Position numbers and translations under genes: made by a program
Part shown: one piece after another, positions 13,749 through 54,979 of the stretch
Numbering within the stretch: the first letter of the stretch is position 1
How the letters are laid out: every line of letters starts with the position of its first letter
The notes under the pieces: model-generated
Seen by the model: the letters and a program-made list of their open reading frames with translations, nothing else
Databases searched by the model: none
What the model was told of the DNA's origin: nothing
Assembly (NCBI RefSeq): GCF_002294985.1
Contig: NZ_NSGE01000002.1
Coordinates: forward strand, 496,001 to 560,000
Direction: 5' to 3'
Source: Mesorhizobium sp. WSM3862
GTDB lineage: Bacteria > Pseudomonadota > Alphaproteobacteria > Rhizobiales > Rhizobiaceae
DNA length: 64,000 nt

Positions 13749-13963
13749 CGCTCTTGCTCCTCGACTGTCTAGCGCTGGAGCCGATTGAGAACCTCGTCGC
13801 TACGCAAATCGCCAGCGCTGGGCCCGCGCTGCTCCGTTGGGCGTAAGGTTGGCGATTGCACATTTGCCGGGAACAATGCAGCCTAGCTTCGAGGCTCGAA
13901 AGCTGCCTCCCGGAGCGGGGCCATGCAGGCAGGATACGCGGCACAGTTACTGGTGCAGATGTC

Positions 13964-16168
13964 ATGACACGCGCCCAGTTGGCCGGCGTCATCCTGGGTC
14001 TGTCGCTGGTCGCAGCGCTTACCATTGTCCGGGCGAGCGACCCGCAGCCGTTGAGACTCGCCCGCGAAGCGACGTTCGACCAGTATCAGAGGCTGGCACC
14101 TCGCCGCTTCGAGTCGATGCCCGTCCGCGTGGTGGACATCGACGAGGTCTCATTGCAGCAGTTCGGGCAGTGGCCGTGGCCCAGGGATCGCATGGCGGCC
14201 CTGGTCGAAAAGCTGACGGAGCTTGGTGCGTCAGCCATCGCGTTTGACATTCTTTTCGCCGAGCCCGACCGTCTGTCGCCTCGCACTGTCCTCCGCGACG
14301 TGCCGGGCATCGATCCGGCCCTGCTCGACCGCCTGCCCGACAATGACGAGATCTTCGCCGGGTCGATCGCCGGCAAGCCAGTTATCCTGGGCTACGGCAT
14401 CTCCAACGAAGGGAACTATCGGCCGCAAATCAAGGCTGGCATTGCCTTTATGGGCGAGAGCCCGATCGCTGCTCCTCCGCCTATCAAGGCAGCCACGCCG
14501 CTGCGGCCGCAGCTTGAGGCCAATTCACCCGGCATCGGACACATCAGCCTCAATCCCGGCAGATCGACCGCTGTGGTGAGGACAGCCCCACTCTTTCTGA
14601 CTGATGGCGAGCAGCTTTATCCGGATCTTGCCCTCGAAGCCATAAGAGTAGCGCAGAGGGCCTCCACCTACCTCATTACCGGCGCGCCGGATCGGCAGGG
14701 CATAATGACCTCCGTCAAGATCGGCGACTTCGTTGTCCCGGTGACCTCGGCCGGCGAACTCTGGCTCTACGTTAGCCCCGACAGGGCCGAGCGTTATGTT
14801 TCGGCGAAGGACGTGCTTGCACCCGGCGGCGTCTCGTCCGAAACGAGGGCCGCGATCGAAGGCAGCATCGTGTTTGTCGGCACTTCGGCCGCCGGGCTGC
14901 AGGACATTCGTGTCACCGCGCTCGGTGAGAACGTGCCGGGCGTCTCGATCCACGCGCAGATCGTTGAACAGGTGCTGTCCGGCCACTACCTGTCTCGGCC
15001 CGATTGGGCAAACGGGCTGGAAATCGCGTCGATCGCGATGCTCGGCAGCCTTCTGGTGATCCTGACGATTTTCGTAAGCCCCGCGATTGCGCTCGCCTGC
15101 GGGCTTGCTATCACGGGCCTGGCGCTCGTCGCATCATGGCTTGCCTTTTCGCTTGGGGGACTGCTGTTCGACCCGTTTGCGCCGATCCTCATGGGCACGA
15201 TCACGCATTTCGCGACAACCTCTTTCCGCTTCCTGGTGACTGATCGGGAGCGGCGCGCGATCCGGCGGGCCTTCGGACAGTATTTGTCGCCATCGCTTCT
15301 CTACCGCATCGAGCACACGCGCGACGCGCTTCGTCTTGGCGGCGACGACCGAGAACTGACCGTGATGTTTGTCGATGTGCGAAACTTCACGGAGATCAGC
15401 GAAAGACTGCCGCCCACCGCCGTCGTGCGGTTTTTGAACACGCTTCTCGACGCGCTCAGCCGTCATGTCACCGCCAATGAAGGCACGCTCGACAAGTTCA
15501 TCGGCGATTCGATCATGGCCTTTTGGAATGCCCCGGTCGACGTCACCGATCATCCTCGCAAAGCCGCTCGCGCGGCATTGGCGATGCGCGAGACGATTGC
15601 CCGCCTCAACGAAAGCGATGCATTCGGATTTGGGGCCGGGCAGACGGTTCGCATCGGTATCGGAATTCATACCGGCGTCGCCTGTGTCGGCAATATGGGC
15701 GCGGAGTCGCGTTTCAACTATTCGGCCGTTGGCGACGCGGTGAACATCGCAGCGCGTATCGAGACAACGTGCAAGACGGTGAGTTTCGATATTCTCGCGT
15801 CCGACGACACAGTAAGATCGCTGCAAGGCTGGGCTTTGCTCGACGCGGGATCGCTGGAACTCAAGGGAAAGAGCACGAGGACCAGAATCAATGCCGTCGT
15901 AGGCGATGAAAACGTTGGGTCGTCGCCGGATTTTGGGGAATTGCGGCTTCTCCACGGCAAGCTCGTCGAGGCGTTGCAATCGCGCTTGCCAGGCAGCCGA
16001 AAGATGATCGCGGCGGCCAAAGCCAAAAGCGCGAGGCTACCGGCAGGATTGCAGGAATTCTATGGCCGGATCTCGCGCAGAGCGGACGATTTTGCTGGCA
16101 AACGGGCGGGAGCGGCGATGGAAACGAATGCCGGCTATGCGGAGCAACAATTCGGCTCCGGTTCCTGA
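13964..16168 (+). CDS. Membrane adenylate/guanylate cyclase with CHASE2 sensor domain
   Basis: Product of 734 residues from the ATG at 13964. It has an N-terminal membrane helix, a large extracytoplasmic CHASE2 domain (about 30-345, containing VRVVDIDEVSLQQFGQWPWP and GASAIAFDILFAEPD), three closely spaced hydrophobic helices, then a class III cyclase domain. Catalytic features are intact: VMFVDVRNFTEIS with metal Asp, LDKFIGDSIMAFW with substrate Lys and second metal Asp, and NYSAVGDAVNIAARIE with the Asn/Arg pair. It probably makes cAMP in response to an envelope signal. It is convergent with a FecR-domain gene, a pairing seen with CHASE2 cyclases in rhizobia. The frame opens earlier at 13856, but that extension is not protein-like. 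Confidence 0.9.
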   Translation: MTRAQLAGVILGLSLVAALTIVRASDPQPLRLAREATFDQYQRLAPRRFESMPVRVVDIDEVSLQQFGQWPWPRDRMAALVEKLTELGASAIAFDILFAEPDRLSPRTVLRDVPGIDPALLDRLPDNDEIFAGSIAGKPVILGYGISNEGNYRPQIKAGIAFMGESPIAAPPPIKAATPLRPQLEANSPGIGHISLNPGRSTAVVRTAPLFLTDGEQLYPDLALEAIRVAQRASTYLITGAPDRQGIMTSVKIGDFVVPVTSAGELWLYVSPDRAERYVSAKDVLAPGGVSSETRAAIEGSIVFVGTSAAGLQDIRVTALGENVPGVSIHAQIVEQVLSGHYLSRPDWANGLEIASIAMLGSLLVILTIFVSPAIALACGLAITGLALVASWLAFSLGGLLFDPFAPILMGTITHFATTSFRFLVTDRERRAIRRAFGQYLSPSLLYRIEHTRDALRLGGDDRELTVMFVDVRNFTEISERLPPTAVVRFLNTLLDALSRHVTANEGTLDKFIGDSIMAFWNAPVDVTDHPRKAARAALAMRETIARLNESDAFGFGAGQTVRIGIGIHTGVACVGNMGAESRFNYSAVGDAVNIAARIETTCKTVSFDILASDDTVRSLQGWALLDAGSLELKGKSTRTRINAVVGDENVGSSPDFGELRLLHGKLVEALQSRLPGSRKMIAAAKAKSARLPAGLQEFYGRISRRADDFAGKRAGAAMETNAGYAEQQFGSGS

Positions 16169-17888: not shown

Positions 17889-19103
17889 ATGACCCAGCAC
17901 GTACAAGATGCTCGAATTCTCATGTACAGCCACGACACGTTCGGGCTCGGCCACTTGCAGCGCTGCCGCACGATCGCGCATTCCCTGGTCGAGGATTTCC
18001 ACGGACTTCAAGTGCTTATCATTTCGGGCGCGCCTATCGCCGGCGCCTTCGACTACCGCGCCCGCGTCGACTTCGTGAAGATCCCGAGCGTCATCAAGTT
18101 GCGCAACGGCGAATACACCTCGCTGGAAAAGGATATCGATCTGCATGAGACGCTAAGAATGCGCCAGTCGATCATTCGCCACACAGCCGAGACGTTTCGG
18201 CCGGATATCTTCATCGTCGACAAGGAACCGCTCGGGCTGCGCGGTGAGATCGAGGACACGCTGTCCTACCTCAAGACGCGAGGCACTACGCTGGTGCTTG
18301 GCCTGCGCGAGGTGATGGATGCGCCGCATCTGCTGGAAGCAGAGTGGGAACGCAGGGATGTGATGCGCAAGATAGGCCTGTTCTACGACAAGGTCTGGGC
18401 CTACGGTCCGCCGGATTTTTACGATCCGTTGACCGGCCTGGATGTGCCGCCGGCTATCAGGGCAAAGATGAAGTTCGTCGGTTTCCTGCAACGGAGCCTG
18501 CAGAAGAACGAGTTGCCCGGCCACCGCCCCGAGGGCGACTATATCCTCGTTACGACCGGTGGCGGCGGCGACGGCGCCGATCTGATCCACAACGTTATCG
18601 ATGCCTATCAGCAGGATCCGCAATTGCAGCATAGGGCGTTGATCGTGCTTGGGCCCTACATGCCGGCGCGCAAGCGCAACAAGTTTCTTAAGAAGGGGTC
18701 CAAAATCCCGTATATCAAGATCATCGAATTCGACAACCGCATGGAAGAGCTGATTGCCGGCGCCAAGGCGGTAGTGGCGATGGGCGGTTACAACACCTAT
18801 TGCGAGATACTGTCTTTCGACAAGCCGGCGCTGATTGTGCCGCGCGTCAAGCCGCGCGAGGAGCAACTGATCCGCGCAAGGCGAGCAGCCGAACTCGGTC
18901 TCATCAAGATGCTTTCCCCGGAAGAAGCTGAGGATTCCCAGCGGTTTGCCGATACACTGAAGGTGCTGCCGGATCGGCCCCGCCCATCGCAGAGCAATCC
19001 GCATCTGAGGCTGGAAGGGCTGCCTCATATTTCCGCAATCGTCGCGGAACTGCTCGACCGGCGTGCCGGCCATCACCTTTCGGTCATTGAAGGCATCAAC
19101 TGA
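17889..19103 (+). CDS. MurG-like glycosyltransferase (COG4671 type), first of three
   Basis: Product of 404 residues. It starts with ILMYSHDTFGLGHLQRCRTI, a glycine/histidine-rich loop typical of predicted glycosyltransferases related to MurG (GT28-like GT-B fold). The donor half holds VTTGGGGDGADLI, then AKAVVAMGGYNTYCEIL and VPRVKPREEQLIRA, which correspond to the nucleotide-sugar site in MurG. An AGAGG motif precedes the ATG at a good distance. It starts a tight operon: the next gene begins one base after its stop, and the one after that overlaps by 4 bp. Acceptor and donor are unknown. Confidence 0.8.
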   Translation: MTQHVQDARILMYSHDTFGLGHLQRCRTIAHSLVEDFHGLQVLIISGAPIAGAFDYRARVDFVKIPSVIKLRNGEYTSLEKDIDLHETLRMRQSIIRHTAETFRPDIFIVDKEPLGLRGEIEDTLSYLKTRGTTLVLGLREVMDAPHLLEAEWERRDVMRKIGLFYDKVWAYGPPDFYDPLTGLDVPPAIRAKMKFVGFLQRSLQKNELPGHRPEGDYILVTTGGGGDGADLIHNVIDAYQQDPQLQHRALIVLGPYMPARKRNKFLKKGSKIPYIKIIEFDNRMEELIAGAKAVVAMGGYNTYCEILSFDKPALIVPRVKPREEQLIRARRAAELGLIKMLSPEEAEDSQRFADTLKVLPDRPRPSQSNPHLRLEGLPHISAIVAELLDRRAGHHLSVIEGIN

Positions 19104-19104
19104 G

Positions 19105-20349
19105 TTGCAACATCGCAAGATCGTCGTGGTTCTGAAGGGTTATCCGCGGCTGTCGGAAACCTTCATCGCGCAGGAGCTGCTCGGGTTGGAGCGAGCGGGG
19201 TTCGACCTGATACTCGTCGCGCTGAGGCGGCCGACCGACGCAAAACGCCATCCCGTGCATAACGAGATCAGAGCGCCCGTCCATTATCTGCCGGAATACC
19301 TGCATGAAGAACCGCTGCGCGTGGCTCGCTCGCTGTTTGCTTGTCTGCTGCGGCCAGGCTTCTGGCGCGCGCTCGGATCGCTGGCTGCCGACATCCCCCG
19401 CGACTTTACGCGCAATCGCGTGCGCCGCTTCGGGCAAGCGCTCGTGCTGGCGGCCGAATGGCCGGAAGATGCGGGCTGGCTGCATGCGCATTTCGCGCAC
19501 ACACCGGCATCGGTGACACGCTATGCCAGCCAGCTTCGCGGTCTGCCCTGGAGCTGCTCGGCCCATGCCAAGGACATCTGGACTTCGGCTGACTGGGATC
19601 TGGCCGGCAAGCTTTCCTCGGCGCGCTGGACGGTCACCTGCACGAAAACCGGCTTCGACCGTCTAAAAAAACTCGCTAACGGCAACTCGTCATTACATCT
19701 GAGCTATCATGGGCTCGACCTTGATCGCTTCGGCAGCTTCCGCGGGGCGCGGAAACCGCATGACGGCTCGGCACCGGACGAACCGGTTGTCGTTCTGAGT
19801 GTCGGGCGCGCCGTTGAAAAGAAAGGTTACGATACGTTGCTGGAGGCGCTTGCCCTCCTGCCTGGTGATTTGGCGTGGCGTTTCGAGCATATCGGCGGTG
19901 GCGACGAACTGGAACGGCTCAAGGCGTTGGCGCAAAAGCTCGGCCTGGATGGTCGCGTCTCTTGGAAAGGCGCGCTTGCTCAGGAGGAGGTGCTTGAGCA
20001 CTACCGCCGCGCCGACATCTTCGCCCTGGCCTGCAGGATCACCGCAAATGGCGACCGGGACGGTCTGCCGAATGTTCTGGTTGAGGCGGCCAGCCAGCGG
20101 CTTGCCTGCGTGTCGACCGATATTTCCGGCGTGCCGGAGCTTTTATCTTCGGATGAAACCGGGCTGCTGGTCCCGACAGAAAATCCAATTGCCCTGGCAC
20201 AGGCGCTGGAGCGCCTTATCCGTGATCCCCTGCTGCGCGCCCGCCTCGGTGACGCTGCAGAGTGGCGCGTGCGCGCCAATTTCGATCATATGACAAGCAT
20301 TGGGCAGCTCAAGGAACTGTTCGAGCGGGAGTGGCGGGCCGCCGAATGA
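19105..20349 (+). CDS. Glycosyltransferase family 4
   Basis: Product of about 414 residues starting at a TTG (19105), which has AAGG 11 nt upstream; an alternative GTG at 19063 would overlap the previous gene by 41 bp and has no ribosome-binding site. The N-terminus IVVVLKGYPRLSETFIAQEL is a classical GT4 start. The second half contains VLSVGRAVEKKGYDTLLEAL, the GGGDELERL donor loop, RADIFALACRI, and GLPNVLVEAAS (E-x7-E-like). It is sandwiched between two COG4671-type glycosyltransferases, with its stop overlapping the third gene's ATG by 4 bp. A shared oligosaccharide product is inferred. Confidence 0.88.
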   Translation: MQHRKIVVVLKGYPRLSETFIAQELLGLERAGFDLILVALRRPTDAKRHPVHNEIRAPVHYLPEYLHEEPLRVARSLFACLLRPGFWRALGSLAADIPRDFTRNRVRRFGQALVLAAEWPEDAGWLHAHFAHTPASVTRYASQLRGLPWSCSAHAKDIWTSADWDLAGKLSSARWTVTCTKTGFDRLKKLANGNSSLHLSYHGLDLDRFGSFRGARKPHDGSAPDEPVVVLSVGRAVEKKGYDTLLEALALLPGDLAWRFEHIGGGDELERLKALAQKLGLDGRVSWKGALAQEEVLEHYRRADIFALACRITANGDRDGLPNVLVEAASQRLACVSTDISGVPELLSSDETGLLVPTENPIALAQALERLIRDPLLRARLGDAAEWRVRANFDHMTSIGQLKELFEREWRAAE

Positions 20350-21503
20350 AGCGACTGCGCGCCTTCTTCTATGTCCAGCACCTCCTCGGTATCGGCCATC
20401 TTGCGCGCGCCAGCCGCATTGCGGCGGCTCTGGTCGATGACGGGTTTGACGTAACCGTGGTGACGGGCGGCGCGCCGATCGCGGGGTTTCCAGGATCGGG
20501 CGTCAAATCTGTATCTCTGCCTCCCGTCACCTCCGGCGATGAAGGATTTTCCGGACTTGTCGACCTGCAGGGCAAACCCATCGACGATGCTTTCAAGAAA
20601 TGGCGTTCGGAGATGCTGTTGCAGGCCTATCGGGATTGCGGGCCCGATATCGTCATCGTCGAGGCGTTTCCATTTGGACGCCGGCAGATGCGTTTCGAAC
20701 TCCTGCCGCTGATCGAGTCCATCGAGGCGACATCACCCAGACCGCTGCTGGCGACGTCCGTCCGTGATATCCTTCAGGAGCGCGTCAAGCCGGGCCGAAA
20801 CGAGGAAACGGTCGATCTCATCAACAGGCATTTCGACCTTGTCATGGTCCACGGCGATCCGGCTTTCGCAACCATCGACAAGACCTTTCCATTGGCTGGG
20901 GCGATCAGGGCCAAGGTTGCCTACACTGGGCTCGTTGCCGCGCCGCCACCGCCCGCGGTCTCCGAGCGCTTCGACGTTCTGGTGTCGGTTGGCGGCGGGG
21001 CTGCCGGAAAGAGCCTCGTCAGTGCCACTGTCGCAGCGGCGCGGAATGCCAACAGCGCTTGGAAATGGTGTCTGATCACCGGTCCAAACCTGCCGAAAGG
21101 CGAGGTCGACGCGATCGCACGCGATGCCACCCCGGGCCTGTCGATCTTCCGGTTCCGCGAGGATTTCGCCAGCCTGCTGACCGGCGCCCGCCTCTCGGTC
21201 TCGCAGGCGGGTTACAACACGGTCTGCGACGTCCTGCGCGCGGGTTGTCGCTCCCTACTCGTTCCATTTGCGGCGGGTGCGGAAACCGAACAGACGGTTC
21301 GCGCCCTGATGCTCGAAGAAATGGGTCTTGCAACGGTGCTGACGGAAAAGGACCTAACGCCTGACGGTTTGGCGCGAGCGATCGAACAGGCGCTTGCTGG
21401 ACCGAGGCCGTCGGCGCATCGTCTCGATCTGGAAGGCGCGCGTCGCTCGGCGCAAATCCTGCGCGAGCGACATCGAACATGGTCCCTGAAAACGGAACTC
21501 TAG
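20346..21503 (+). CDS. MurG-like glycosyltransferase (COG4671 type), third gene of operon
   Basis: Product of 385 residues, beginning RAFFYVQHLLGIGHLARASR, a close counterpart of the gene at 17889 (GLGHLQRCRTI). The donor half shows VLVSVGGGAAGKSLV, LTGARLSVSQAGYNTVCDVL and VPFAAGAETEQTVRA, again the MurG-like pattern. The two COG4671 proteins are paralogues of low identity, so they probably add different sugars or act on successive acceptors. The start ATG at 20346 overlaps the GT4 stop (ATGA), so the longer frame from 20262 is dismissed. No membrane segment is seen. Confidence 0.82.
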   Translation: MKRLRAFFYVQHLLGIGHLARASRIAAALVDDGFDVTVVTGGAPIAGFPGSGVKSVSLPPVTSGDEGFSGLVDLQGKPIDDAFKKWRSEMLLQAYRDCGPDIVIVEAFPFGRRQMRFELLPLIESIEATSPRPLLATSVRDILQERVKPGRNEETVDLINRHFDLVMVHGDPAFATIDKTFPLAGAIRAKVAYTGLVAAPPPPAVSERFDVLVSVGGGAAGKSLVSATVAAARNANSAWKWCLITGPNLPKGEVDAIARDATPGLSIFRFREDFASLLTGARLSVSQAGYNTVCDVLRAGCRSLLVPFAAGAETEQTVRALMLEEMGLATVLTEKDLTPDGLARAIEQALAGPRPSAHRLDLEGARRSAQILRERHRTWSLKTEL

Positions 21504-22700: not shown

Positions 22701-25415
22701 ATGGAACCCAGTCTAGCCCGCTATATCTGGACGCACACCAAGAAGCAGCAGGTCTGGATATTGATGATCGTCGTGCTTTCGATGATCCCCTATTTCATAT
22801 CCTTCGATCTGCCGAAGCTGATCGTCAACGGCCCTATCCAAGGTAAGGGTTTCGGAGAACCCGGCGCGACCCAGCCGTTCATGAGGCTGCACTATGACCT
22901 GCCGTTCATTGGTGAGGTGCAGTTCTTCTCCGGCTTTCAGCTCGACCGCACGGAGACGCTGTTTGCGCTGAGCATTGTTTTCCTTTTGCTAGTCATCATC
23001 AACGGCCTGTTCAAACTCTACATCAACACATACAAAGGCCGACTTGGCGAGCGCATGCTGCGGCGTATCCGTTTCGATCTGATCGATCGCGTGCTGCGGT
23101 TTCCGCCGATTTACTTCAAACGCGTGAAATCCGCCGAAGTGGCGACCATGGTGAAGGACGAGGTGGAGCCGCTGGGGGGCTTCATCGGCGATGCCTTCCT
23201 GCAGCCGGTGCTGCTCGGCGGTCAGGCGCTGACGGCCATGCTGTTCATCATGGTGCAAAACTTCTGGCTCGGAACGATTGCGGTCGTGATCGTGGTGATC
23301 CAGATCGTGCTCATCCCGCGCATGCGGCGGCGGCTGATCGTGCTCGGGCGCGAACGGCAGTTGACGGCGCGCGCGCTCTCGGGCCGGGTCGGCGAAATCG
23401 TCGACGGCATCGGCGCGGTTCACGTCCACGACACATCAAACTACGAGCGCGCCGACATAGCTGCTCGGCTCGGCCTCATCTTCAAGATCCGCTTCGATCT
23501 TTACCAATGGAAATTCATGGTGAAGTTCCTCAACAATTTTCTGGCGCAGCTCACGCCCTTTCTGTTCTACATGATCGGCGGCTACCTGGTCATCCGGGGG
23601 CGGCTGGACGTCGGCCAGCTGGTGGCCGTGATCAGCGCCTACAAGGACCTGCCCGGACCGATGAAGGAACTGATCGACTGGGATCAGGCTCGCCAGGATG
23701 TCCAGGTCAAATACCAGCAGGTCGTTGAGCAATTCACCGTCGAGGGTCTCATTGCGCCGAGAATTGGAGCGTTGACGATCGACGCTCCCGGTCCGATGAC
23801 CAACCCTCTGTCGGCAATCAATCTGTCCATAGCGGACGATGGCGGTGGAATGCTCCTCGACCGGATCTCGCTCCAGGTCAAGCCGGGTGAGACGGTGGCG
23901 CTGGTCAGCACCGCAACAGGTGGAGCGGAGGCGCTTGCGGAAGCCTTTGCGCGGCTGAACTGGCCGGACAGCGGAAAGATCGCTTCGGGCGCCGACGACC
24001 TGCTTGAACTTCCCGAAGCGGTGACCGGCCGGCGCATGTCCTACGCCTCGTCGGATGTTTTCCTGTTCCATGCAAGCCTCCGCGATAACCTGCTCTACGG
24101 GTTGAAGCATGCGCCGCTGACATCGGTGCCTTATGAGGGTGCTGCGGCAGACCAGCAGCGCTGGAACATTCACGAGGCGCGGCGGTCGGGCAATTCGGAC
24201 CTCGATATCCGGAGCGACTGGATCGACTATGCTTCCGCCGGGGCCACCGGCCCGCACGACCTCTTTGAGGCGGTGCGCCGGGTGCTCGACGCGGTTCTTC
24301 TGTCGCGCGACATTCTGGATCTCGGCTTGCGCTCCTCGGCTGACCTGACGCGTCACACGGAACTCGCCAGGCGCATCGTCGAACTGCGTGCGGCGCTGCG
24401 AACCCGGCTGGAACAGGAAGGGCTGAGCGGACTGGTGGTTCCTTTCGAACCAGGCGCCTACAACAAGGAAGCATCGATCGGCCAAAACCTGCTCTTCGGC
24501 GCCGCCGCCGGCCCCGAACTGGCCGACAAGGCGCTAGCGGCCAATCCCTATTTTGCTTCTGTGCTGAGACAAGCCGGGCTCGACCGCACGCTTTTCGAAA
24601 TGGGCATGGAGATCGCCGAACAGGCGATCGAGCTGTTTGCCGACCTGCCGCCCGATCACCAGTTCTTCCAGCAGCTCGCCTTCATGGGCGCCGAAGAGAT
24701 ACCCGCCTACGAAACCTTGCTACAACGGCTCAAGAACCGTCCCTACGAGGCAGTTTCGGAGAACGATCGCGCCATGATCGTTACACTGAGCTTTGCCTAT
24801 ATCGAGCCCCGGCACCGCTTCGGCCTGCTGAGCGAGGATCTGATGAGCAAGATCGTCGCTGCACGCAACCGGTTCTATGAAACCCTGCCGTCCGAGCTGC
24901 AAAATGCGATCGAACGTTATGATCCTGCCAAATACATTGCCGCGGCCAGCGTCATGGATAATGTCCTGTTCGGGCGTGTGGGCAACAACCATCCCGACGC
25001 GCCGGATCGCATCCGCTCCATCGTCTATGACATTCTCGACGAATTGGGGCTTTATGCCGAACTTCTGGATGTTGGCCTGGACTTCAACGTCGGCGCCGGC
25101 GGCAGGCGGCTGACCGCTGGACAGCGACAGAAGCTCGATGTTGCCCGGGCCCTGCTCAAGCGTCCCGATTTTCTCATTCTCAACCGGCCGCTGTCGGCGC
25201 TCGACCAGCGTGCGCAGGACAAGGTGCTGCGAAACGTGCTCGACGAAGCCAGGTGCGACGGCCATTCGCCGGCAATTGTGTGGGTCGTGACGAATCCGGC
25301 AATGGGGATGATGTTCGATCGCGTTATCGTCTTCGACTCGGGTAAATTGGTGGAAGACGGAACGCTCGAGACACTTTTGGCAGGGAAGGGTATCTTCAAG
25401 GAACTGCTGTCTTAG
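22701..25415 (+). CDS. ABC-transporter-like protein with degenerate ATPase and large insertion
   Basis: Product of 904 residues. Residues about 15-320 form an exporter-type ABC membrane domain (helices near 20, 95, 180, 290) with the usual cytoplasmic loops (RIRFDLIDRVLRFPP, LSGRVGEIVDGIGAVH). The nucleotide-binding domain is recognisable but broken at every catalytic site. Walker A reads LVSTATGGAEAL at 401-412 (Lys to Ala, Thr to Glu). Walker B is FLILNRP at 824-830 (Asp to Asn, Glu to Arg). The signature is LTAGQ at 804-808. The switch His is Asn865. About 330 residues, rather than the usual 60-70, separate the Q-loop region from the signature. It is followed closely by a cNMP-binding gene and an MBL gene. 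Transport powered by this domain alone is unlikely; a scaffold, channel or heteromer role is inferred. Confidence 0.82.
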   Translation: MEPSLARYIWTHTKKQQVWILMIVVLSMIPYFISFDLPKLIVNGPIQGKGFGEPGATQPFMRLHYDLPFIGEVQFFSGFQLDRTETLFALSIVFLLLVIINGLFKLYINTYKGRLGERMLRRIRFDLIDRVLRFPPIYFKRVKSAEVATMVKDEVEPLGGFIGDAFLQPVLLGGQALTAMLFIMVQNFWLGTIAVVIVVIQIVLIPRMRRRLIVLGRERQLTARALSGRVGEIVDGIGAVHVHDTSNYERADIAARLGLIFKIRFDLYQWKFMVKFLNNFLAQLTPFLFYMIGGYLVIRGRLDVGQLVAVISAYKDLPGPMKELIDWDQARQDVQVKYQQVVEQFTVEGLIAPRIGALTIDAPGPMTNPLSAINLSIADDGGGMLLDRISLQVKPGETVALVSTATGGAEALAEAFARLNWPDSGKIASGADDLLELPEAVTGRRMSYASSDVFLFHASLRDNLLYGLKHAPLTSVPYEGAAADQQRWNIHEARRSGNSDLDIRSDWIDYASAGATGPHDLFEAVRRVLDAVLLSRDILDLGLRSSADLTRHTELARRIVELRAALRTRLEQEGLSGLVVPFEPGAYNKEASIGQNLLFGAAAGPELADKALAANPYFASVLRQAGLDRTLFEMGMEIAEQAIELFADLPPDHQFFQQLAFMGAEEIPAYETLLQRLKNRPYEAVSENDRAMIVTLSFAYIEPRHRFGLLSEDLMSKIVAARNRFYETLPSELQNAIERYDPAKYIAAASVMDNVLFGRVGNNHPDAPDRIRSIVYDILDELGLYAELLDVGLDFNVGAGGRRLTAGQRQKLDVARALLKRPDFLILNRPLSALDQRAQDKVLRNVLDEARCDGHSPAIVWVVTNPAMGMMFDRVIVFDSGKLVEDGTLETLLAGKGIFKELLS

Positions 25416-25517: not shown

Positions 25518-25964
25518 ATGCTGCTCAAGGATGAAGTTGGAATGCTGCAACGCGTTCCCTTGTTCTCCGGCATCGAACCGACAAAGCTCAAGCTGCTTGC
25601 GTTCACATCCGATCGCGTGAGCTACAGCGCCGGCCAGATCCTTTTCCGGCAGGGCGACGAGGGAGACGCCGCCTATGTCATCCTTTCAGGCAGGGCGGAT
25701 GTTCTGGTCGATTCCGACAGCGGGCCGATAAAAGTTGCCGAACTGGCGCCAAATTCGATCGTTGGCGAGATCGCCATATTGTGCAACAGCTCCCGCACTG
25801 CCACCGTCAGAGCGGCAAGTCCGCTGGAAGCCTTGAAAATCAGCAAGGATCATTTCCTGAGGCTTATGAAGGAGTTCCCGGAGATGACCATCGAGATATT
25901 GCGGGTTCTTGCCGATCGTCTAAGCCATACGACCGCGGACCTGATCGACGCACGAAACGCCTAG
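25518..25964 (+). CDS. Cyclic nucleotide-binding domain protein, no DNA-binding domain
   Basis: Product of 148 residues consisting almost only of a CAP-type cNMP-binding domain. The phosphate-binding cassette is intact (VGEIAILCNSSRTATV, with Gly83, Glu84, Arg93, Thr94), so cAMP or cGMP binding is plausible. The C-terminal helix (EILRVLADRLSHTTADL) is the usual dimer helix, and no helix-turn-helix follows, so it is a signalling adaptor rather than a Crp transcription factor. The ATG at 25518 is preceded by AGAAGG; the GTG at 25449 is not. It sits 102 bp downstream of the pseudo-ABC gene and 35 bp upstream of the MBL hydrolase, in a likely operon. Confidence 0.88.
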   Translation: MLLKDEVGMLQRVPLFSGIEPTKLKLLAFTSDRVSYSAGQILFRQGDEGDAAYVILSGRADVLVDSDSGPIKVAELAPNSIVGEIAILCNSSRTATVRAASPLEALKISKDHFLRLMKEFPEMTIEILRVLADRLSHTTADLIDARNA

Positions 25965-25999
25965 CAGCAGTTGTTGGCCACGACGGGCGAAGGAGCAGC

Positions 26000-26845
26000 A
26001 TGGATTTCCTGGTCAGGTTTTGGGGCGTGCGGGGCAGCATTTCGGTATCGGGACCAGAATTCTCTCGCTATGGCGGCAACACGAGCTGCATTGAGATGCG
26101 ATGCGGCAAGCATATGCTTCTGTTCGACGCCGGCTCTGGTCTAGGGCTTGCCGGCAGAGCGTTTCGGGCCTCGGGCGTGACCGATTTCGAGCTGTTTTTC
26201 ACCCATTGCCATTACGATCACATCATCGGGCTGCCGGCCTTCAAACCGATCTATGACCGGAGCGTCAAGGTCAGGCTTTGGTCCGGCCATCTTGCAGGAC
26301 GCATGACGACCCGTCAGATGGTCGATGAATTCATGCGGCCGCCGTGGTTTCCGGCCAAGCTCGACATCTGCAAGGCAAGCATCGACTGCCGCGATTTCGT
26401 ATCCGGAGACGTTCTAAGGCCGCGCGAAGGAGTGGTGGTCCGAACCGGCAGTCTCAACCATCCGGGAGGCTGCATAGGCTACCGCGTCGAATGGGGCGGC
26501 CGCATCGTGGCGGTGATCACAGACACTGAGCACGACCCGGGTACGCTCGATCAGGCGGTGCTCGACCTGATCGAAGACGCCGACCTCGTCATCTACGATT
26601 GCACCTACACCGAGGACGAAATGGAAGACCGCCGTGGCAACGGGCACTCGACATGGCAGCAGGGCGTCAAACTGTGTGAGGCAGCCGGTGCCCGAGGGCT
26701 TGGGCTGTTCCACCACGATCCGACACGCACCGATGAGCAATTGGATGAGATCGAGAAACTGGCCAAAGCCAGGTTTGCCGGCGCTTTTGCCGCGCGGGAC
26801 GGCCAGACGCTTAAATTTCCAGTCTCATTGCACAAAAAGCGCTGA
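26000..26845 (+). CDS. MBL-fold metallo-hydrolase (PhnP/cyclic phosphodiesterase-like, COG1235)
   Basis: Product of 281 residues. The metal-binding signature is THCHYDH (HxHxDH), followed by later ligands in LNHPGGCIGYRVE, ITDTEHD, and the closing LGLFHHDPTRTDEQL. The N-terminal sequence VRFWGVRGSIS with GGNTSCIE is typical of the COG1235 branch, which includes cyclic phosphodiesterases such as PhnP. AAGGAG lies a few bases before the ATG at 26000; a longer frame from 25781 overlaps the cNMP gene and is rejected. Neighbouring a cNMP-binding protein and many cyclases, it is a reasonable candidate cyclic-nucleotide phosphodiesterase, but the substrate is inferred. Confidence 0.82.
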   Translation: MDFLVRFWGVRGSISVSGPEFSRYGGNTSCIEMRCGKHMLLFDAGSGLGLAGRAFRASGVTDFELFFTHCHYDHIIGLPAFKPIYDRSVKVRLWSGHLAGRMTTRQMVDEFMRPPWFPAKLDICKASIDCRDFVSGDVLRPREGVVVRTGSLNHPGGCIGYRVEWGGRIVAVITDTEHDPGTLDQAVLDLIEDADLVIYDCTYTEDEMEDRRGNGHSTWQQGVKLCEAAGARGLGLFHHDPTRTDEQLDEIEKLAKARFAGAFAARDGQTLKFPVSLHKKR

Positions 26846-26896: not shown

Positions 26897-27673
26897 TCAC
26901 ACTTTTCCTGGAATTGCTCTACCGCCGCTACGCCCGATCAATGTCCTGATCGGAAGCCATGCGCAGGCTTTAGTCTGTGCGGCGACTGTGAACAGCCGTT
27001 CGAGAAAAAGCCAGGCCGATTCATCGTGTACGAGATGGTGCGTGAGCAGGCCGACCGGTTCGCCACCGTCGAATGCATGCCGCAATTGCGCAATGATGGC
27101 CTGAACCAAGGACCCATGATCGCGACAGCCGCGCGTGCCATGCCAATCGACGATGTCGACATTGCTGTTGATGACCGGCACTGGGGCCGGCTTCGGCGGC
27201 CCAAAGACCGACAATGCCGCAAATCCTACCGATCCAAGCTGCGATACCAAGCCGGCGTCGATTCTGTTCCAGGGTGGCACCAGCATCGGAACGGCACGCG
27301 CGCCGTGCAGCCCGGTTAGGCGCGACAGCCCGCGAGCCATCTCATCGAGCACCGCCTGGCGTGGCCGATGGGCGCCGAGTTCCTGCTTTTTCTGGTCCTG
27401 CGGCGCATAGTTTCGGTGCGCCCAGCCATGGATGGCGACCGAGGCATGCGGCGCCTCGTCAAGCCGGACGACAAGCCTCTCGTCGGTCAGCGCCGGAATG
27501 ACGGCCAGAGTGAGCGGAACCTCGAATGCACGGGTGAGTTCCAGCAGCCGATCAAGCGCAGCCGTCGGATCCACAGCGTCGTCGTCGCGCAACCAGAACT
27601 CCGCCTTGCGGTCCGCCCGTCGCCAGCACGCCAGTTCTTCCACGAAGGGCTGCCAGATCTGATCGACTGTCAT
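26897..27673 (-). CDS. Polysaccharide deacetylase-family protein
   Basis: Product of 258 residues with a cut-down NodB-like fold: FWLRDDDA carries the catalytic Asp pair, VAIHGWAHRNY provides the H-x3-H metal motif, and LVPPWNRID matches the third motif (Pro-Trp substitution of R-x-PY). The C-terminal VGLLTHHLVHDE holds the last histidines. These describe a zinc-dependent de-N- or O-acetylase of the family often found in polysaccharide loci. No signal peptide, so it is likely cytoplasmic, acting on precursors. Its ATG overlaps the stop of the upstream GT4 gene by 4 bp (ATGA), implying that the two work on the same product. Confidence 0.8.
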   Translation of the reverse strand: MTVDQIWQPFVEELACWRRADRKAEFWLRDDDAVDPTAALDRLLELTRAFEVPLTLAVIPALTDERLVVRLDEAPHASVAIHGWAHRNYAPQDQKKQELGAHRPRQAVLDEMARGLSRLTGLHGARAVPMLVPPWNRIDAGLVSQLGSVGFAALSVFGPPKPAPVPVINSNVDIVDWHGTRGCRDHGSLVQAIIAQLRHAFDGGEPVGLLTHHLVHDESAWLFLERLFTVAAQTKACAWLPIRTLIGRSGGRAIPGKV

Positions 27674-28758
27674 GCAACCGCGATCTTCGCAAGAAGTTCG
27701 GAAAGACGCGCCGCTGCAGTAGCGAGGGAGCGTTCTTCGAGGATGAAACGTCTGGCGTTGCCGGCCATGACGGTTCTTTCCTCGCCACGGACCAGAAGCC
27801 TTTCGATGGCAGACGTGAACGCCGCCACATCGCCCGGCGGGGTGAGAAATCCGGTTTGGCCATCCCGCACGACCTCCGGCACGCCGGCGATGTCCTGCGC
27901 CACCACCGGAAGGCCGGCAGCTTGTGCTTCAAGATAGGCAACGCCATAAGCTTCGCCGCAACCCGGCCAGACGTAAATCCCTCCACTGTAGAGGACATCC
28001 GGCACGGCGGCTGGCTCGATCGCGCCAAGCCATTCGATCCGGTCGGCGGGAAGGCCGGCGAATTGCGCTTTGACCTCGTCACGGGCAGGCCCGTCCCCGA
28101 CGACCGACATGGTCCAGGGCAGGTGGCCGATCGGAGCGAGGGCGTGCGCGAGCATGCGATAGCTATCGACCTTGTCGCCCGGTCGCATCATGGCGACGGT
28201 AACGAGACGCGTCGGACAACCACGCGCCGGCAGTTCCCGGAATACCGATGTGTCGATGAAGGGCGAAAGCATGCCGAAAACGGCGTCTGGAAGAGCGTCT
28301 GTCAGTCCCCGACGATCCCTTTGCGTGAAGCAGATGTTCAGCGCCGCCTGTTCGACGGCTCGCGCCACCAAGGCTTGCATATCGGCCCAAAAACCGACGT
28401 TGCGCCGCTTCGAATAGGAGGCTTCCGCGGTCACATAGGGGATGGCAAAGGCCGACGCCAGCTCGGGCCCGATCAGGTCGGGCGCCTTGTAATAGAGATG
28501 ATAGGAGAACCAGAGGTCGGGCTTGCCGTCACGCTGCCAAAGCTCTGTCAGCCGCGCGACTTCCTGTCGGGCTTCGACCTTGAGCGCATCGAAACTTTTC
28601 GACTCCGGTTCGCGTAGATAGAAGCGCAATTCGGATGCCAGATCGACGCGATGCCCTCCATGCTCAAGCGCCTTGATCAACATCCGTGCCATCTGACGGT
28701 CGCCAGAGGCAACGGCATGATTGGGCGACTTCAGCGGCGCGTAGAAGGCAATTCGCAT
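27670..28758 (-). CDS. Glycosyltransferase family 4
   Basis: Product of 362 residues. Family features: N-terminus IAFYAPLKSPNHAVASGDRQ, VTVAMMRPGDKVDSY, VVGDGPARDEVKA donor loop, and the E-x7-E region CGEAYGVAYLEAQAAGLPVV with VPEVVRDGQTG following. It transfers a sugar from a nucleotide donor in the cytoplasm. The gene is coupled to the deacetylase at 26897 through a 4-bp ATGA overlap. Upstream it is divergent from the DUF3095 gene across about 90 bp. Substrates are unknown. Confidence 0.87.
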   Translation of the reverse strand: MRIAFYAPLKSPNHAVASGDRQMARMLIKALEHGGHRVDLASELRFYLREPESKSFDALKVEARQEVARLTELWQRDGKPDLWFSYHLYYKAPDLIGPELASAFAIPYVTAEASYSKRRNVGFWADMQALVARAVEQAALNICFTQRDRRGLTDALPDAVFGMLSPFIDTSVFRELPARGCPTRLVTVAMMRPGDKVDSYRMLAHALAPIGHLPWTMSVVGDGPARDEVKAQFAGLPADRIEWLGAIEPAAVPDVLYSGGIYVWPGCGEAYGVAYLEAQAAGLPVVAQDIAGVPEVVRDGQTGFLTPPGDVAAFTSAIERLLVRGEERTVMAGNARRFILEERSLATAAARLSELLAKIAVA

Positions 28759-28845
28759 CGCCGGAGCCTATCATTGGAAAGCCTGCGCAAGTCAATTTCG
28801 AAGCATGATCGAGTTTCACCTTCAAGCAGTGGAATGTGCTATTGC

Positions 28846-31731: not shown

Positions 31732-33072
31732 ATGAGCACAACGCAAGCAGAAATTTCCACCATCCTCATGGATAAGGTAGCCGATTGGCTGAACCAATCG
31801 GTACTTGCCGGCAACGACCTGGAAACATTGGTAAAAGGCTTTTGCGAACGGCTGGCTGCTGCCGGCCTGCCGTTGAAGCGGGTGCATTTGAGCTTTTCGA
31901 TGCTTCATCCGCTTTATGATGCGCTTGGCTTCACCTGGGTTCGCGGCCGAGGCTTAGAAATCGAAAGCTTCCGCAATGAGCCCGGCGCGCCGTCCGACAG
32001 GTTCCTGACCAGCCCATACTATCATCTGCTCAGCAACAAGCTCGACCACCTGCGACGCCGGCTCGACCCGTCGCTGCCATCGGAGTTTCCTGTTTTCGAT
32101 GATCTCAGGCTTATAGGCGTCACCGACTATTTGGCTTTCGTGCATTCCTTCAACGGCAACGCCAGTCAGGGCATGATGGGGTCCTGGTCCACCGACAGTG
32201 CCGCAGGGTTCAGCGACAGCATGATTTCGGCGCTGCTGCGCATCCAGAACCATCTCGCTATGGCAACCAAGATGGCGGTGCTCACCAAGCTCGCCGACAA
32301 CATGATGACCACTTATCTCGGCGGCGACGCCGGCAGGCGCGTGCTTGACGGTCAGATCAAGCGCGGCGAGGGCGATACAATCCGGGCCGCGCTGGTCATG
32401 GGCGACATGCGCGGGTCGTCAAGGCTTGCCGAAACCTCCGGCCGTGAAATCTATATCGATACGCTGAACCAGTTTTTCGACGCCGTTGCAGCACCTTTCA
32501 ATCGCAAAGGTGGGCAGATCATGAGTTTCATCGGGGATGGCTTCATCGCCGTTTACCCTTGCGAAAGGCATCGCTCGCAGTCCGAGATCGCCTGCCAGGC
32601 TGCTCTTGCGGCAGCGCGCAGCGCCACAGCGCGCGTGACGGATCTCAATCTGCGCAGAAAGGAAAAGGGGCTAATCGACATAAAATTTGGTATCGGTCTA
32701 CATGTCGGCAATGTGATGTTCGGCAATGTCGGGCTTACCGACCGGCTCACATTCTCTGTCTTCGGCTCGGCTGTAAACGAGGTCCAGCGTCTCCAGGTAC
32801 TGACCAAGAAATATCCGCACAGCATTCTCGCCAGCAAGGACTTCGCCAGCTATTGCGGCGCCAGCAACTGGCTGACGCTCGGCAGCGAGGAACTGGCTGG
32901 CATCAAGCAGAAGCTGACGGTGCTCTCACCCGATCTGTCGGGTGCTCTCGCAGTCGATGAAGACGGTGCGCTGGAGCCGGTTTATGACCGAAGATCGGAC
33001 GCCGAGCAGGTCATGCTGCTTCACCGCGATGCCGCGCGGCTGTCGGCGGGCGACCCGAGCAAGCTCCAGTAA
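31732..33072 (+). CDS. Class III cyclase-like protein lacking the base-selecting lysine
   Basis: Product of 446 residues with a novel N-terminal half (about 1-200) of unknown fold and a C-terminal class III cyclase domain. AALVMGDMRGSSRLAE carries the first metal Asp and GGQIMSFIGDGFIAVYP the second. At the position where adenylate cyclases have Lys (DKFIGD) it has Ser (MSFIGD). The GIGLHVGNVMFGNVG and VNEVQRLQ segments keep the glycine-rich turn and transition-state Arg. It could therefore use another nucleotide or be a regulatory pseudo-cyclase. It lies between the nucleotide-sugar dehydrogenase and the peptide transporter, with about 270 bp upstream that hold no supported gene. Confidence 0.8.
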   Translation: MSTTQAEISTILMDKVADWLNQSVLAGNDLETLVKGFCERLAAAGLPLKRVHLSFSMLHPLYDALGFTWVRGRGLEIESFRNEPGAPSDRFLTSPYYHLLSNKLDHLRRRLDPSLPSEFPVFDDLRLIGVTDYLAFVHSFNGNASQGMMGSWSTDSAAGFSDSMISALLRIQNHLAMATKMAVLTKLADNMMTTYLGGDAGRRVLDGQIKRGEGDTIRAALVMGDMRGSSRLAETSGREIYIDTLNQFFDAVAAPFNRKGGQIMSFIGDGFIAVYPCERHRSQSEIACQAALAAARSATARVTDLNLRRKEKGLIDIKFGIGLHVGNVMFGNVGLTDRLTFSVFGSAVNEVQRLQVLTKKYPHSILASKDFASYCGASNWLTLGSEELAGIKQKLTVLSPDLSGALAVDEDGALEPVYDRRSDAEQVMLLHRDAARLSAGDPSKLQ

Positions 33073-39872: not shown

Positions 39873-41288
39873 TCAGGGGATCGTGTATACCGCTATCTCC
39901 CTCTCGATGCCGCGCAGCGAGACCTCGTGTGGCACGGGCGTCAGCGCGTTCCTGTGCAACAGATCGGCGGTGAGATTGTCGTCGACCACCGCGCGCGTGG
40001 CGAAGATCGCCTGTGCGTTGGCAAGGTTCTGAACCCGCGAAGCAATGTTGACCGTCTGGCCGAAATAGTCCTGTCGCTCGTTCATAGACACGGCAATGCA
40101 CGGGCCGGCATGGACTCCGATCTTGAGCAGCAGATCCTCGCGCCCGCTCTTCTCATTGAGCGCACGCATGGCATCGCGCATCCTCAGGGCCGCGGCAATC
40201 GCACGATCCGGCGTCGCGAAGGTCGCCATCACCGCATCGCCGATCGTCTTCACCACCGCGCCTGCCTCCGACGCAACGATCTCGTGCAGGACCTGAAAAT
40301 GCACGCGCACGAGATCGAAGGCTGAAAGATCGCCCACCCGCTCGTAAAGCTCGGTCGATCCGCGCAGGTCGGTGAACAGGAAGGTGAGGCTAGTGATCTT
40401 CAGGCGCTGGTTGATGTCGAGCGTATCGGTGCGATAGAGATCGCGGAAGGTCTGGTTGGTGAGCAGGCGCTTGGCTGTCAGGAACGGCCGGCGTTTGCCC
40501 AGGAGATCATGCAATTCCTGGCCGGCGATGAAGACCGTCGGCAGCACGCGGGTGTCGGTCCTGTTTTCCAGCGAAATGCGCAACGGGCCGGGTTGCATCT
40601 CCAGCGTCTGGTTCTGGATATGCTCGCGGTCGAAGACCAATGAGAGGCTTCGGCGCTCTCTTGTCGGTTCGCCCTTGACGTCGATGAACTGCACTGAATG
40701 GGTGACCGGCTCGAAGACGATGATGAATTCGGACGGAAGCTGTACGGGCAGAACAGCCTTTTCACCGGGCGCAAGCTCGATATCCTCCAGCGAGAACGCT
40801 TCCATCGTCTTGGCGAAATCCTCTTCCGGCAGGTCGACGCCGGACGCCCAGTAGATCTGGCGGAAATATTCCACCAACGGCAGTTCGTGTGGATTGTGGG
40901 CGGCAATCTTGCGCACGCGAGGACTGACCGTGAATGTCACCTCGACCATCTCGTCGAGGGTCGGTGAATAGCCTTCGGAACACAGCGCGCAGGTATATTC
41001 GTCCTTCTGCAGGGTTTTCAGCGTGGCGTTGCTGTCGAGCACGCCGCCACAGCCGGGGCATAGAACATTCCAGGAAATGTCGAAGAGGCCCACGCGCGCC
41101 GCATGCAGAAAGGCGCCTATGGCGCGATCCTCGTCGAGGCCATGCTTGCTGGCGAAGGCTAGAGCATTGATGCGGCAAAGCTCGCGGTCCTTGCCCTCCG
41201 CGATGGTTCGCTTGATCGCATCGATTGCCCGCGGATCGACATCGGTCGATTGCCGCAGAAGCGAGAACAGATCCTGAGCTTCGTTCAT
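39873..41288 (-). CDS. Class III adenylate cyclase with DUF5939 and zinc ribbon
   Basis: Product of 471 residues. The N-terminal part (about 1-290) matches the DUF5939 arrangement and includes a zinc-ribbon-like CPGCGG...CALC pair at about residues 78-103. The cyclase domain follows: FLFTDLRGSTELYERVG with metal Asp, VVKTIGDAVMATF with substrate Lys and second metal Asp, and YFGQTVNIASRVQ with the Asn/Arg pair. It has no membrane segment, so it is a soluble cyclase whose N-terminus may sense a metal or ligand. Divergent from a membrane-protein gene at 41492. Confidence 0.86.
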   Translation of the reverse strand: MNEAQDLFSLLRQSTDVDPRAIDAIKRTIAEGKDRELCRINALAFASKHGLDEDRAIGAFLHAARVGLFDISWNVLCPGCGGVLDSNATLKTLQKDEYTCALCSEGYSPTLDEMVEVTFTVSPRVRKIAAHNPHELPLVEYFRQIYWASGVDLPEEDFAKTMEAFSLEDIELAPGEKAVLPVQLPSEFIIVFEPVTHSVQFIDVKGEPTRERRSLSLVFDREHIQNQTLEMQPGPLRISLENRTDTRVLPTVFIAGQELHDLLGKRRPFLTAKRLLTNQTFRDLYRTDTLDINQRLKITSLTFLFTDLRGSTELYERVGDLSAFDLVRVHFQVLHEIVASEAGAVVKTIGDAVMATFATPDRAIAAALRMRDAMRALNEKSGREDLLLKIGVHAGPCIAVSMNERQDYFGQTVNIASRVQNLANAQAIFATRAVVDDNLTADLLHRNALTPVPHEVSLRGIEREIAVYTIP

Positions 41289-46351: not shown

Positions 46352-46595
46352 GGGCACGTGTCCTCGGCTTCATAATAGCAGGAAGGCGGAGGGTAAGAGG
46401 GAATTTTCGTGGACGACGGCTACCGAGCCGCCGCGAGCCGGCAGCGCTCTGCCACCGGGCCTGGACCGATCGCTCGGTGCCCCATTTGCGCTGCCGCTTG
46501 CTGGCCGACGACTATCGGTTCATTCTTGTCTGAATACCCCGGCCGTGAAGTGCGTGGCGGATCACGCCGTCATGGCTTCAGTGAGGTCTTGCTCG

Positions 46596-49500: not shown

Positions 49501-49898
49501 TTCAGGCGCGCCTCCTCGCGAACCTGGCGGTTGCTTGTTGTACTTTCACGGATCGCTGCCCAACGGAGGGCGTGCCTGCTGCCGAGAAGGCCATCGAGAT
49601 CGACCGGGCACTCGACCAGCGCGAGCATCTGCCGGTGCCGTTGATCGTGCTTGCGCAGATCCACCAGTGCAACGGTCGTCCGGAACTGGCGGTTGGCTTG
49701 TTCCACGAAGCACTGGACGTAGCGCGCGAAACGAGTGAACCCCAACTGCTGTTTCCGTGCTATGATGGTCTGGCAACGCTTAATCTCGACCTCGACAATC
49801 TGGCCGAGGCCGAACGCTACTTTTCCCTGGCGCAGGGTGTATGCGCCCAGCACGGGCTAGACCCGGAAGCGCTTGTGGTGCTGCCTTTTCTCGACTAG
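46596..49898 (+). CDS. Large cyclase with double zinc ribbon, AAA ATPase and TPR domains
   Basis: Product of 1100 residues from ATG 46596, which has GAGG 9 nt upstream; the long upstream extension to 46128 overlaps the divergent gene and is rejected. It begins with a double zinc ribbon (CSGCGFEV...FCPKCGRRQ, CASCGYL...FCPKCGAS), then a class III cyclase domain with VLFADLCGFTTLSEQLD, VDKFIGDALLALF and YSVTGDTVNTAQRLQ. A STAND/AAA ATPase follows with P-loop GEAGIGKSRLVKEF and LLIVVEDLHWADAV as Walker B. The last 400 residues are TPR-like repeats. Such proteins couple regulatory ATPase state to cyclase activity. It is followed 19 bp later by the peroxiredoxin-like gene. Confidence 0.9.
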   Translation: MDCSGCGFEVEGGFAFCPKCGRRQPVPCASCGYLCAPDFEFCPKCGASVGATAKAVERPAPTPSRTIVPPSRTPSLLANIESEDDGLHPVSEADRRTVTVLFADLCGFTTLSEQLDPEVMQALQNQLFKELTAAVRNFGGFVDKFIGDALLALFGAPVAHEDDPERALRAALDMMARTTRLGESAPHSGSPLLLHIGINTGPVVTGGLGIGTAKSYSVTGDTVNTAQRLQSLAAPGEVLVGELTHRLTRHAFSFEPLGDVVLRGKAGSVLVHRLDAPLALPRAARGLEALGLSAPIIGRGAELHRMLASLDQACGGSAQLVRLVGEAGIGKSRLVKEFVARVGDEDRFRNVAVRQATCSPLGEQSFGALGAVVRSAAGMMQSDTGDEMRAKLGGLLTDLGLQGEEAKRLMPLLYHVLGLGDPDATLQHVEPEQLRRQILYAVRTIIERRLALSPLLIVVEDLHWADAVSLEALRFVMDRLERTRLMLLVTHRPAPDNDQLDSSRVSHTALRLSPLNTDDGRGLLAALFGESWVKSAGRLVDQILERAGGNPLFIEEIVRGLIDRGVLMREGQRWRTAAGEVATGIPATIQAMLLARVDRLPQEVRRLAQEAAVIGPRFDATLLKAVTAEPGRLEAGCELLCDAEIIEEVAGSGSISTPSYRFTQTLLQDVIYQNLLLQRRTDIHGRVGAALEQLCGDKPERLEDLTVLGHHFAQSAEREKGAHYLQAAGDRARMIYANDDALRFYERALTALSAIGQTPLKLAIAERIADLSGPVGRREVAHQHYETVLQAYRESGNRVASARVLRKIGRLLWDVGKRDNAESRYAEAAALLEGADAPIEQAQLWQERGRQAFRSGDHARAAKWADAALDGVRALTAEHVSEEGRDATLVTAEALNTKAVALARLGRNLEAVRQIERSIELAEAAGLLGAACRGYTNLGVLYTTIDPAQAIKVCRRGLEVARHIGDLGFQARLLANLAVACCTFTDRCPTEGVPAAEKAIEIDRALDQREHLPVPLIVLAQIHQCNGRPELAVGLFHEALDVARETSEPQLLFPCYDGLATLNLDLDNLAEAERYFSLAQGVCAQHGLDPEALVVLPFLD

Positions 49899-54899: not shown

Positions 54900-54979
54900 G
54901 GTGCGCCGAACGCCGGCGTGACGCTGAGACGTCTAGTCTGATGCAGACCTGTGTGGCTGGATTGTTCCGACTCCCCACG

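Follow-up and report, generated by a model that had tools for sequence, protein, structure and literature searches.

We analysed a stretch of 64,000 nucleotides from Mesorhizobium sp. WSM3862 (contig NZ_NSGE01000002.1, positions 496,001 to 560,000), hereafter the window. This stretch carries a gene for an ABC exporter-like protein, accompanied by genes for a small cyclic-nucleotide-binding (CNB) protein, glycosyltransferases and nucleotide cyclases. Coordinates are window positions on the forward strand, unless the reverse strand is stated. The gene occupies positions 22701..25415, an open reading frame (ORF) of 2,715 bp that starts with ATG at 22701, contains zero internal stops and encodes 904 amino acids. 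A Pfam scan of this protein detected ABC_membrane (1.1e-18) and a split ABC_tran (2.2e-9). The AlphaFold model displayed a mean predicted local distance difference test score (pLDDT) of 87.3 and a predicted template modelling score of 0.82. Residues 1-345 (22701..23735), including the loop between helices 1 and 2, form the exporter-type transmembrane domain, which is defined by the helices of the model and contains many invariant columns. The PDB structural matches listed for the model were all ABC transporters, mainly type-I exporters. After removal of a long insertion, 239 of 239 residues of the nucleotide-binding domain (NBD) could be overlaid on the NBD of ComA (2.0 Å, Z 28.4), which makes the predicted fold that of a normal exporter. 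Both Pfam and the model find a six-helix membrane domain followed by an ABC NBD, the arrangement of type-I ABC exporters, which bears out the intact 904-residue frame with an exporter-type membrane domain described by a first-pass annotation of this DNA. The best NCBIfam match was TIGR02203 MsbA, with 165.1 bits against a cut-off of 602, hence the protein does not qualify as an MsbA lipid A exporter.

The nucleotide site of this protein is highly altered. For comparison, we collected 307 members of the family (284 distinct proteins); together with the window protein these made 308 rows, which were reduced to 178 representatives at 80% identity. The Walker A region (residues 403-410, 23907..23930) reads STATGGAE, or VSTATGGAEA with one flanking residue on each side, and the strand 398-403 and helix 409-416 of the model place A409 at the position of the catalytic Lys and E410 at that of the Ser/Thr. 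Walker B (residues 824-829, 25170..25187) reads LILNRP, with N828 in the place of Asp and R829 in the place of Glu. These assignments agree between the model, the alignment of representatives and the counts given below, and they match the substitutions originally reported for both motifs. The replacement of the switch His had to be corrected: it was reported as Asn, but in the alignment of representatives the column holds T864 (25290..25292), to which relatives that keep the His align it, and N865 is only adjacent. In addition, the Gln of the Q-loop is replaced by S451, and Gln is found at this position in 16 of the 178 representatives. The proposal that every ATPase motif is destroyed was too strong, because the D-loop SALD is intact and the signature LTAGQ (residues 804-808, 25110..25124, from the translation and orthologue comparison) is only mildly altered; Walker A, Walker B, the Q-loop and the switch are indeed replaced. 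Close orthologues (>88% identical, 56 distinct proteins, counted without the copy of the window and without identical duplicates) share these replacements, with A409 in 55, E410 in 53, and N828, R829 and T864 in all 56. At residue 806, Ala in the window protein, 38 of the 56 have Gly. The protein therefore lacks the Lys and Ser/Thr of Walker A, the Asp and Glu of Walker B and the switch His that mark an active ABC ATPase. As a control, five of six other ABC matches read from the same genome displayed both GK[ST] and LDEAT; the longest frame of the sixth (L005) showed neither, and this frame may be wrong. We refer to the protein as a pseudo-ABC exporter, as its NBD has the predicted exporter fold without the residues known for hydrolysing ATP.

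Selection on the gene was assessed with simple Nei-Gojobori-type counts of the ratio of nonsynonymous to synonymous substitution rates (dN/dS). The median dN/dS was 0.161 over 55 distinct orthologues that are 88-97% identical to the window protein, as expected under purifying selection. The membrane domain had the lowest value (0.117), followed by the insertion (0.159), the first NBD part (0.195) and the last NBD part (0.345). Against 16 orthologues at 60-80% identity the values were 0.194 overall and 0.164 for the last NBD part; these are rough, with dS near saturation (median about 1 in a similar set). The frames of relatives are open, with two stop-containing matches among those listed for the family, order and class genomes. 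Open frames, low dN/dS and conserved replacements support the earlier proposal of selection for a non-hydrolysing form rather than decay, the loss of hydrolysis itself being read from the sequence.

At E <= 1e-60, the sample of family genomes had matches in 150 of 297, that of order genomes in 94 of 297 and that of class genomes in 129 of 385; at E <= 1e-40, 32 of 398 genomes of the phylum had a match, and one partial match falls outside the class. The samples were spread evenly over groups and overlap, hence these fractions are not prevalences. The closest named relatives are from Mesorhizobium (e.g. 99% in Mesorhizobium sp. WSM3860), three listed genomes of the same genus had no match, and 262 plasmid records had a match at E <= 1e-50, among them Sinorhizobium meliloti pSymB.

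Across this family, the loss of motifs as read from the alignments is graded. The number of catalytic residues kept, out of five (K, S/T, D, E, H), was zero in 77 of the 178 representatives, one in 35, two in 44, three in 17 and four in four, while a single representative (L305) kept all five. The signature SGGQ occurs in one of the 178. In a quick, unrooted tree of the membrane domains (174 rows; the divergent L163, L165, L269 and L270 were left out but kept in the tallies), the window protein falls inside a clade of 62 rows with support of 99. There the Walker A Lys is present in 0 of 62 rows (Ala or Gly in 58), its Ser/Thr is Glu or Asp in 53, the Walker B Asp is Asn in all 62, the Glu is Arg or Lys in 57 and still Glu in two, and the switch His is found in none. 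The motif changes are thus conserved, and no close homologue with a canonical Walker A Lys or switch His turned up in this clade. The remaining 116 rows are mixed: 59 have Arg and 47 Lys at the Lys position, 42 Glu and 27 Asp at the Glu position, and 25 the switch His. The distant relatives that keep some motifs, and L305 which keeps all of them, are what make the loss graded. Rooting the tree with canonical exporters was dropped because of very long branches. The residues at the Walker A Lys and Walker B Glu positions were paired as Ala/Arg in 30, Gly/Arg in 20 and Lys/Glu in 29 of the 178. The idea of a salt bridge between E410 and R829 taking the place of ATP remains a guess, since the tree test had just four independent pairs, which is too few. 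The four divergent members left out of the tree share 25-27% identity, have no detectable CNB partner and end their NBD differently, and possibly constitute a separate subfamily.

Two features that the first-pass annotation had missed look more important than the loss of motifs. The first is the insertion (residues 471-785, 24111..25055), which lies between the Q-loop region and the signature in all 178 representatives, with a length of 275-369 residues (median 315), and which reached a pLDDT of 92.5 when modelled alone. Profile comparisons indicate that it is largely two extra copies of the helical subdomain, for a total of three: copy 1 at about residues 436-572 (24006..24416), copy 2 at about 573-727 (24417..24881) and copy 3, which contains the LTAGQ signature, at about 728-820 (24882..25160). 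Copies 2 and 3 matched each other with P 98.6 (E 1.1e-15), copies 1 and 3 with P 93-95 (94.8 in one of the comparisons), and copies 1 and 2 with P 69-86. Meanwhile, 30 of 33 background pairs of segments scored <= 3.9. The three high ones (506-572 against 655-727, 82.6; 506-572 against copies 2 and 3, 71 and 77) are read as parts of the repeats rather than as clean controls, because the alignment of copies 1 and 3 extends into this region. Residues in register also recur in the three copies, namely an Asn (N463 in 153, N596 in 178 and N754 in 178 of the 178 representatives) and an Arg (R563 in 178, R722 in 178 and R816 in 175). Moreover, the invariant residues of the cytoplasmic half are mostly located inside the repeats (W507, R563, N596, G635, R706, R722, N754, G758) and not at the ATP site.

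Structural comparison of the insertion with 941 chains by VIA-align gave ABC transporters in the seven best rows, over about 70-78 residues, and the stretch 417-491 of MsbA, its helical subdomain, fell on copy 2. These rows serve only as support for the profile result, since their Z was weak (4.3-5.2) and unrelated rows followed close below. A Foldseek search with the insertion alone returned 0 matches at E <= 0.001, and its profile found nothing convincing among PDB sequences (best E 0.082). In ordinary exporters, the helical subdomain touches the membrane domain at the coupling helices.

The second feature is the CNB protein encoded downstream (25518..25964, with ATG at 25518 in an ORF that opens with GTG at 25449). 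Its cNMP_binding domain (PF00027, 1e-22) scored 80.4 bits against a cut-off of 27.5, which places it among CNB domains, and was the top score among the seven PF00027 matches in the genome. Within 171 amino acids only this domain matched at a threshold of 0.01, with no recognised DNA-binding helix-turn-helix domain, hence it does not belong with the Crp/Fnr regulators. In 150 of the 177 representatives other than the window protein, the next gene encodes a CNB domain that begins no more than 700 bp downstream, in the same orientation. In 17 the domain is instead fused to the C-terminus, and none was found in 10. Pfam confirmed eight of the nine fusions tested, and the ninth (L160) is truncated where its locus ends. 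The phosphate-binding pocket is well conserved, with Glu in 141 and Arg in 147 of the 150 separate domains, and in 13 and 15 of the 17 fused ones. To judge from these residues, the ABC protein has lost its ATP residues while its partner has kept those for the cyclic nucleotide, and the small protein is predicted to sense cyclic AMP or GMP. We also observed that five members with fused CNB domains (L156, L157, L159, L267, L274) have an altered phosphate-binding motif and belong to a lineage with divergent ATP sites.

The pair is embedded in genes for glycan synthesis, and this cyclase-rich glycan locus had likewise escaped the first-pass annotation. Upstream are encoded a GT28-type glycosyltransferase, GT28a (17889..19103, Glyco_tran_28_C), a GT4-type one, GT4a (19063..20349, Glycos_transf_1) and a second GT28-type enzyme, GT28b (20262..21503, Glyco_tran_28_C). 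Downstream, on the reverse strand, are a polysaccharide deacetylase family protein (26897..27673), which had no Pfam match at 0.001 and is named after an annotated homologue of WSM1497, and a further GT4-type glycosyltransferase, GT4b (27670..28758, Glyco_trans_1_4). The locus also includes a nucleotide-sugar dehydrogenase, a binding-protein-dependent ABC importer and the metallo-beta-lactamase (MBL) hydrolase described below. In many distant members, a block GT28b-GT4b-GT4a-GT28a is divergent from the ABC-CNB pair, and 37 of the 52 loci that extend 5 kb to either side have one of the glycosyltransferases of the locus. Among the 385 genomes of the class, GT28a (E <= 1e-30) and the ABC protein (E <= 1e-60) occurred together in 123, the ABC protein alone in six, GT28a alone in four and neither in 252. 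In at least 21 genomes the two genes are separated by more than 15 kb or sit on different contigs (they share a contig in 10 of these), so that their link is more than proximity; contig breaks may explain part of the cases on different contigs.

The window is also crowded with nucleotide cyclases. These are a CHASE2-linked class III cyclase (13856..16168, CHASE2 and Guanylate_cyc), a protein with a class III cyclase domain (31732..33072, Guanylate_cyc, 4e-7), and, according to Pfam, a DUF5939-linked cyclase (39873..41288, reverse strand), a TPR-linked cyclase (44579..46357, reverse strand), an AAA-TPR cyclase (46128..49898) and a HAMP-PAS cyclase (54941..57445). Six of the 11 class III cyclase domains of the genome (PF00211, E <= 1e-5) are thus found in 42 kb, at 15353-57280 of the window, which random placement reproduced in 0 of 200,000 draws, tandem duplication being disregarded; each of the six differs in domain make-up. 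Next to the CNB gene lies an MBL-fold hydrolase (26000..26845, from the ATG at 26000 in ORF 25781-26845; Lactamase_B_2, 1.8e-16), a candidate phosphodiesterase of cyclic nucleoside monophosphates. Its NCBIfam matches include a cyclic nucleotide-degrading phosphodiesterase model (3.3e-10), with RNase Z models scoring higher and all of them below cut-off. Beside the cyclases, a DUF3095 protein is encoded at 28651-30012. The frame at 46128-49898 encodes 1256 residues with a zinc ribbon, a cyclase domain, an AAA ATPase and TPR repeats, and in other genomes (e.g. L098, L114, L177) genes resembling it lie close to the pseudo-ABC gene.

Our preferred, though still tentative, explanation is that the protein is an ABC-fold facilitator or flippase for a glycan, controlled by a cyclic nucleotide and independent of ATP hydrolysis. 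We infer that a homodimer would move or hold a glycan, or a lipid-linked glycan, made by the co-inherited glycosyltransferases, either downhill or as a flippase, with ATP presumably neither bound nor hydrolysed. The nearby cyclases, and perhaps the MBL hydrolase, would set the local level of the cyclic nucleotide, whose binding to the CNB domain would open or close the ABC protein through a contact with the enlarged helical subdomains. Extended to the whole family, with somewhat greater reserve, this would amount to a switch of the ruling nucleotide: the ATP-site residues are lost, the helical subdomain is tripled, and a CNB domain, in trans or fused, would control a glycan facilitator or flippase. 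That an exporter fold can be uncoupled is shown by D-loop mutants of ABCB2/B3 and ABCB9, which turned into ATP-gated facilitators (PMC7756269).

Several observations weigh against this explanation. The Walker A Lys is kept in 47 and the Walker B Glu in 44 of the 178 representatives, and Arg takes the place of the Lys in another 59, so ATP may still be bound in some lineages. L305, which keeps all five catalytic residues, also has the CNB partner, so that the loss of these residues is not required for the partnership. Besides the four most divergent members, six representatives have no CNB domain that could be found, and the pocket motif of fused domains has Leu for Ala in four and Asp for Glu in three. 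The set of cyclase and hydrolase genes is not universal, as a cyclase like those of the window was found in only 17 of the 52 loci that reach 5 kb to either side, and the MBL gene within 3 kb in 36 of the 101 loci with 2.5 kb downstream. The counts of co-occurrence with glycosyltransferases are uncorrected for phylogeny, and among close orthologues the last NBD part evolves faster than the other parts.

The main rival is a sensor or scaffold role, which we regard as unlikely, if the best of the alternatives. A scaffold was among the roles first suggested, as was a regulated channel. The membrane domain would then sense a glycan or lipid intermediate and, by way of the inert NBD and the CNB domain, couple the supply of glycan to cyclic-nucleotide signalling, with nothing being transported. 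SUR, an ABC-fold regulator, offers a comparison. The changed NBD, the conserved CNB partner and its fusions, the crowding of cyclases and the strongly conserved residues of the membrane domain would all suit such a role. Yet no part of the protein is better conserved than the membrane domain, which fits a path for a substrate. In addition, the Pfam scan of 29 frames of the window revealed no further exporter or flippase within the glycan block, although frames without a match could hide one. Among the scanned frames are the binding-protein-dependent importer and an MFS protein at 12210-13748, outside the glycan block.

It seems improbable that ATP still binds without being hydrolysed and has a structural or gating role alongside the cyclic nucleotide. 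Across the family the Walker A loop has largely retained its glycines, close orthologues have a near-intact signature and D-loop, and many distant members have Lys or Arg at the Lys position. Against this, the clade of the window protein has, in most rows, Ala or Gly for the Lys and Glu or Asp for the Mg-binding Ser/Thr, and in every row Asn for the Walker B Asp.

We consider it slightly more improbable that the protein is the dead half of a heterodimeric exporter, with a canonical ATP-hydrolysing half encoded elsewhere, a role as obligate partner of an active half-transporter being among those originally suggested. The genome encodes many ABC proteins, and heterodimeric exporters in which one site is degenerate are a familiar class (PMC7756269). 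The neighbourhood lends the idea no support, as 0 exporter-like neighbours were found among 177 loci; 52 of these extend at least 5 kb to either side, most of the 177 are too short to judge, and partners elsewhere were not sought. Finally, a non-functional, decaying gene is hardly credible, since the changes in most catalytic motifs and the faster last NBD part are contradicted by overall purifying selection, by replacement residues too constant within the clade for decay, and by the few stop-containing matches.

Comparison with known systems helps to delimit the family. Like MsbA and other type-I (type IV fold) exporters, the protein combines the predicted membrane domain and NBD fold, and MsbA is its best NCBIfam match; unlike them, it lacks the catalytic residues, has two extra helical subdomains and a CNB partner, and scores well below the MsbA cut-off. 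CFTR and SUR are a possible functional parallel, as ABC folds used for gating or regulation, with no common descent implied beyond the ABC fold. These two proteins, a channel and a regulator, still use ATP. Non-canonical residues in a nucleotide site are shared with TAP, TmrAB, TM287/288 and CFTR. In those systems, a degenerate first site stands beside a canonical second one (PMC7756269), whereas the single NBD of our protein has lost Walker A, Walker B and the switch together. S. meliloti MsbA2 (SMb21191) is similar in that an ABC-exporter gene lies within a rhizobial polysaccharide operon (PMC3687685, PMC12239276). Its operon maps near 938 kb on pSymB of strain Rm1021, a position taken from fragment F20 in SMb21188 (PMC3687685), while the relative of our 904-residue protein lies at 841.7-844.4 kb on pSymB of S. 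meliloti 2011. MsbA2 was set aside as the equivalent in S. meliloti by this map position alone. SMb20813, termed the msbA homologue of S. meliloti in PMC10945364, may be the member of the pseudo-ABC family in this species. Our search of one open-access library found no description of this family, which may be described elsewhere.

ABC exporters are defined by ATP. The present family, with matches in roughly one in three of the alphaproteobacterial genomes sampled, maintains the exporter body under selection, has lost the ATPase residues to varying degrees and is accompanied by a conserved CNB protein or domain; it would thus offer a natural experiment on the working of this fold without its motor. 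Signalling by cyclic AMP (cAMP) and cyclic GMP (cGMP) is rich in rhizobia and poorly explained. If our explanation is correct, the protein would be a concrete membrane effector for bacterial cAMP/cGMP signalling, tied to a glycan locus.

Other frames of the window are of separate interest. The long frames at 3731-5359, 43048-44499 and 41464-42297 had no Pfam match at 1e-5, and may be unknown genes or chance frames. Meanwhile, the frame at 50662-53559 encodes a single chain of 965 residues that combines a GT2 glycosyltransferase with a NodS-like methyltransferase and a polysaccharide deacetylase.

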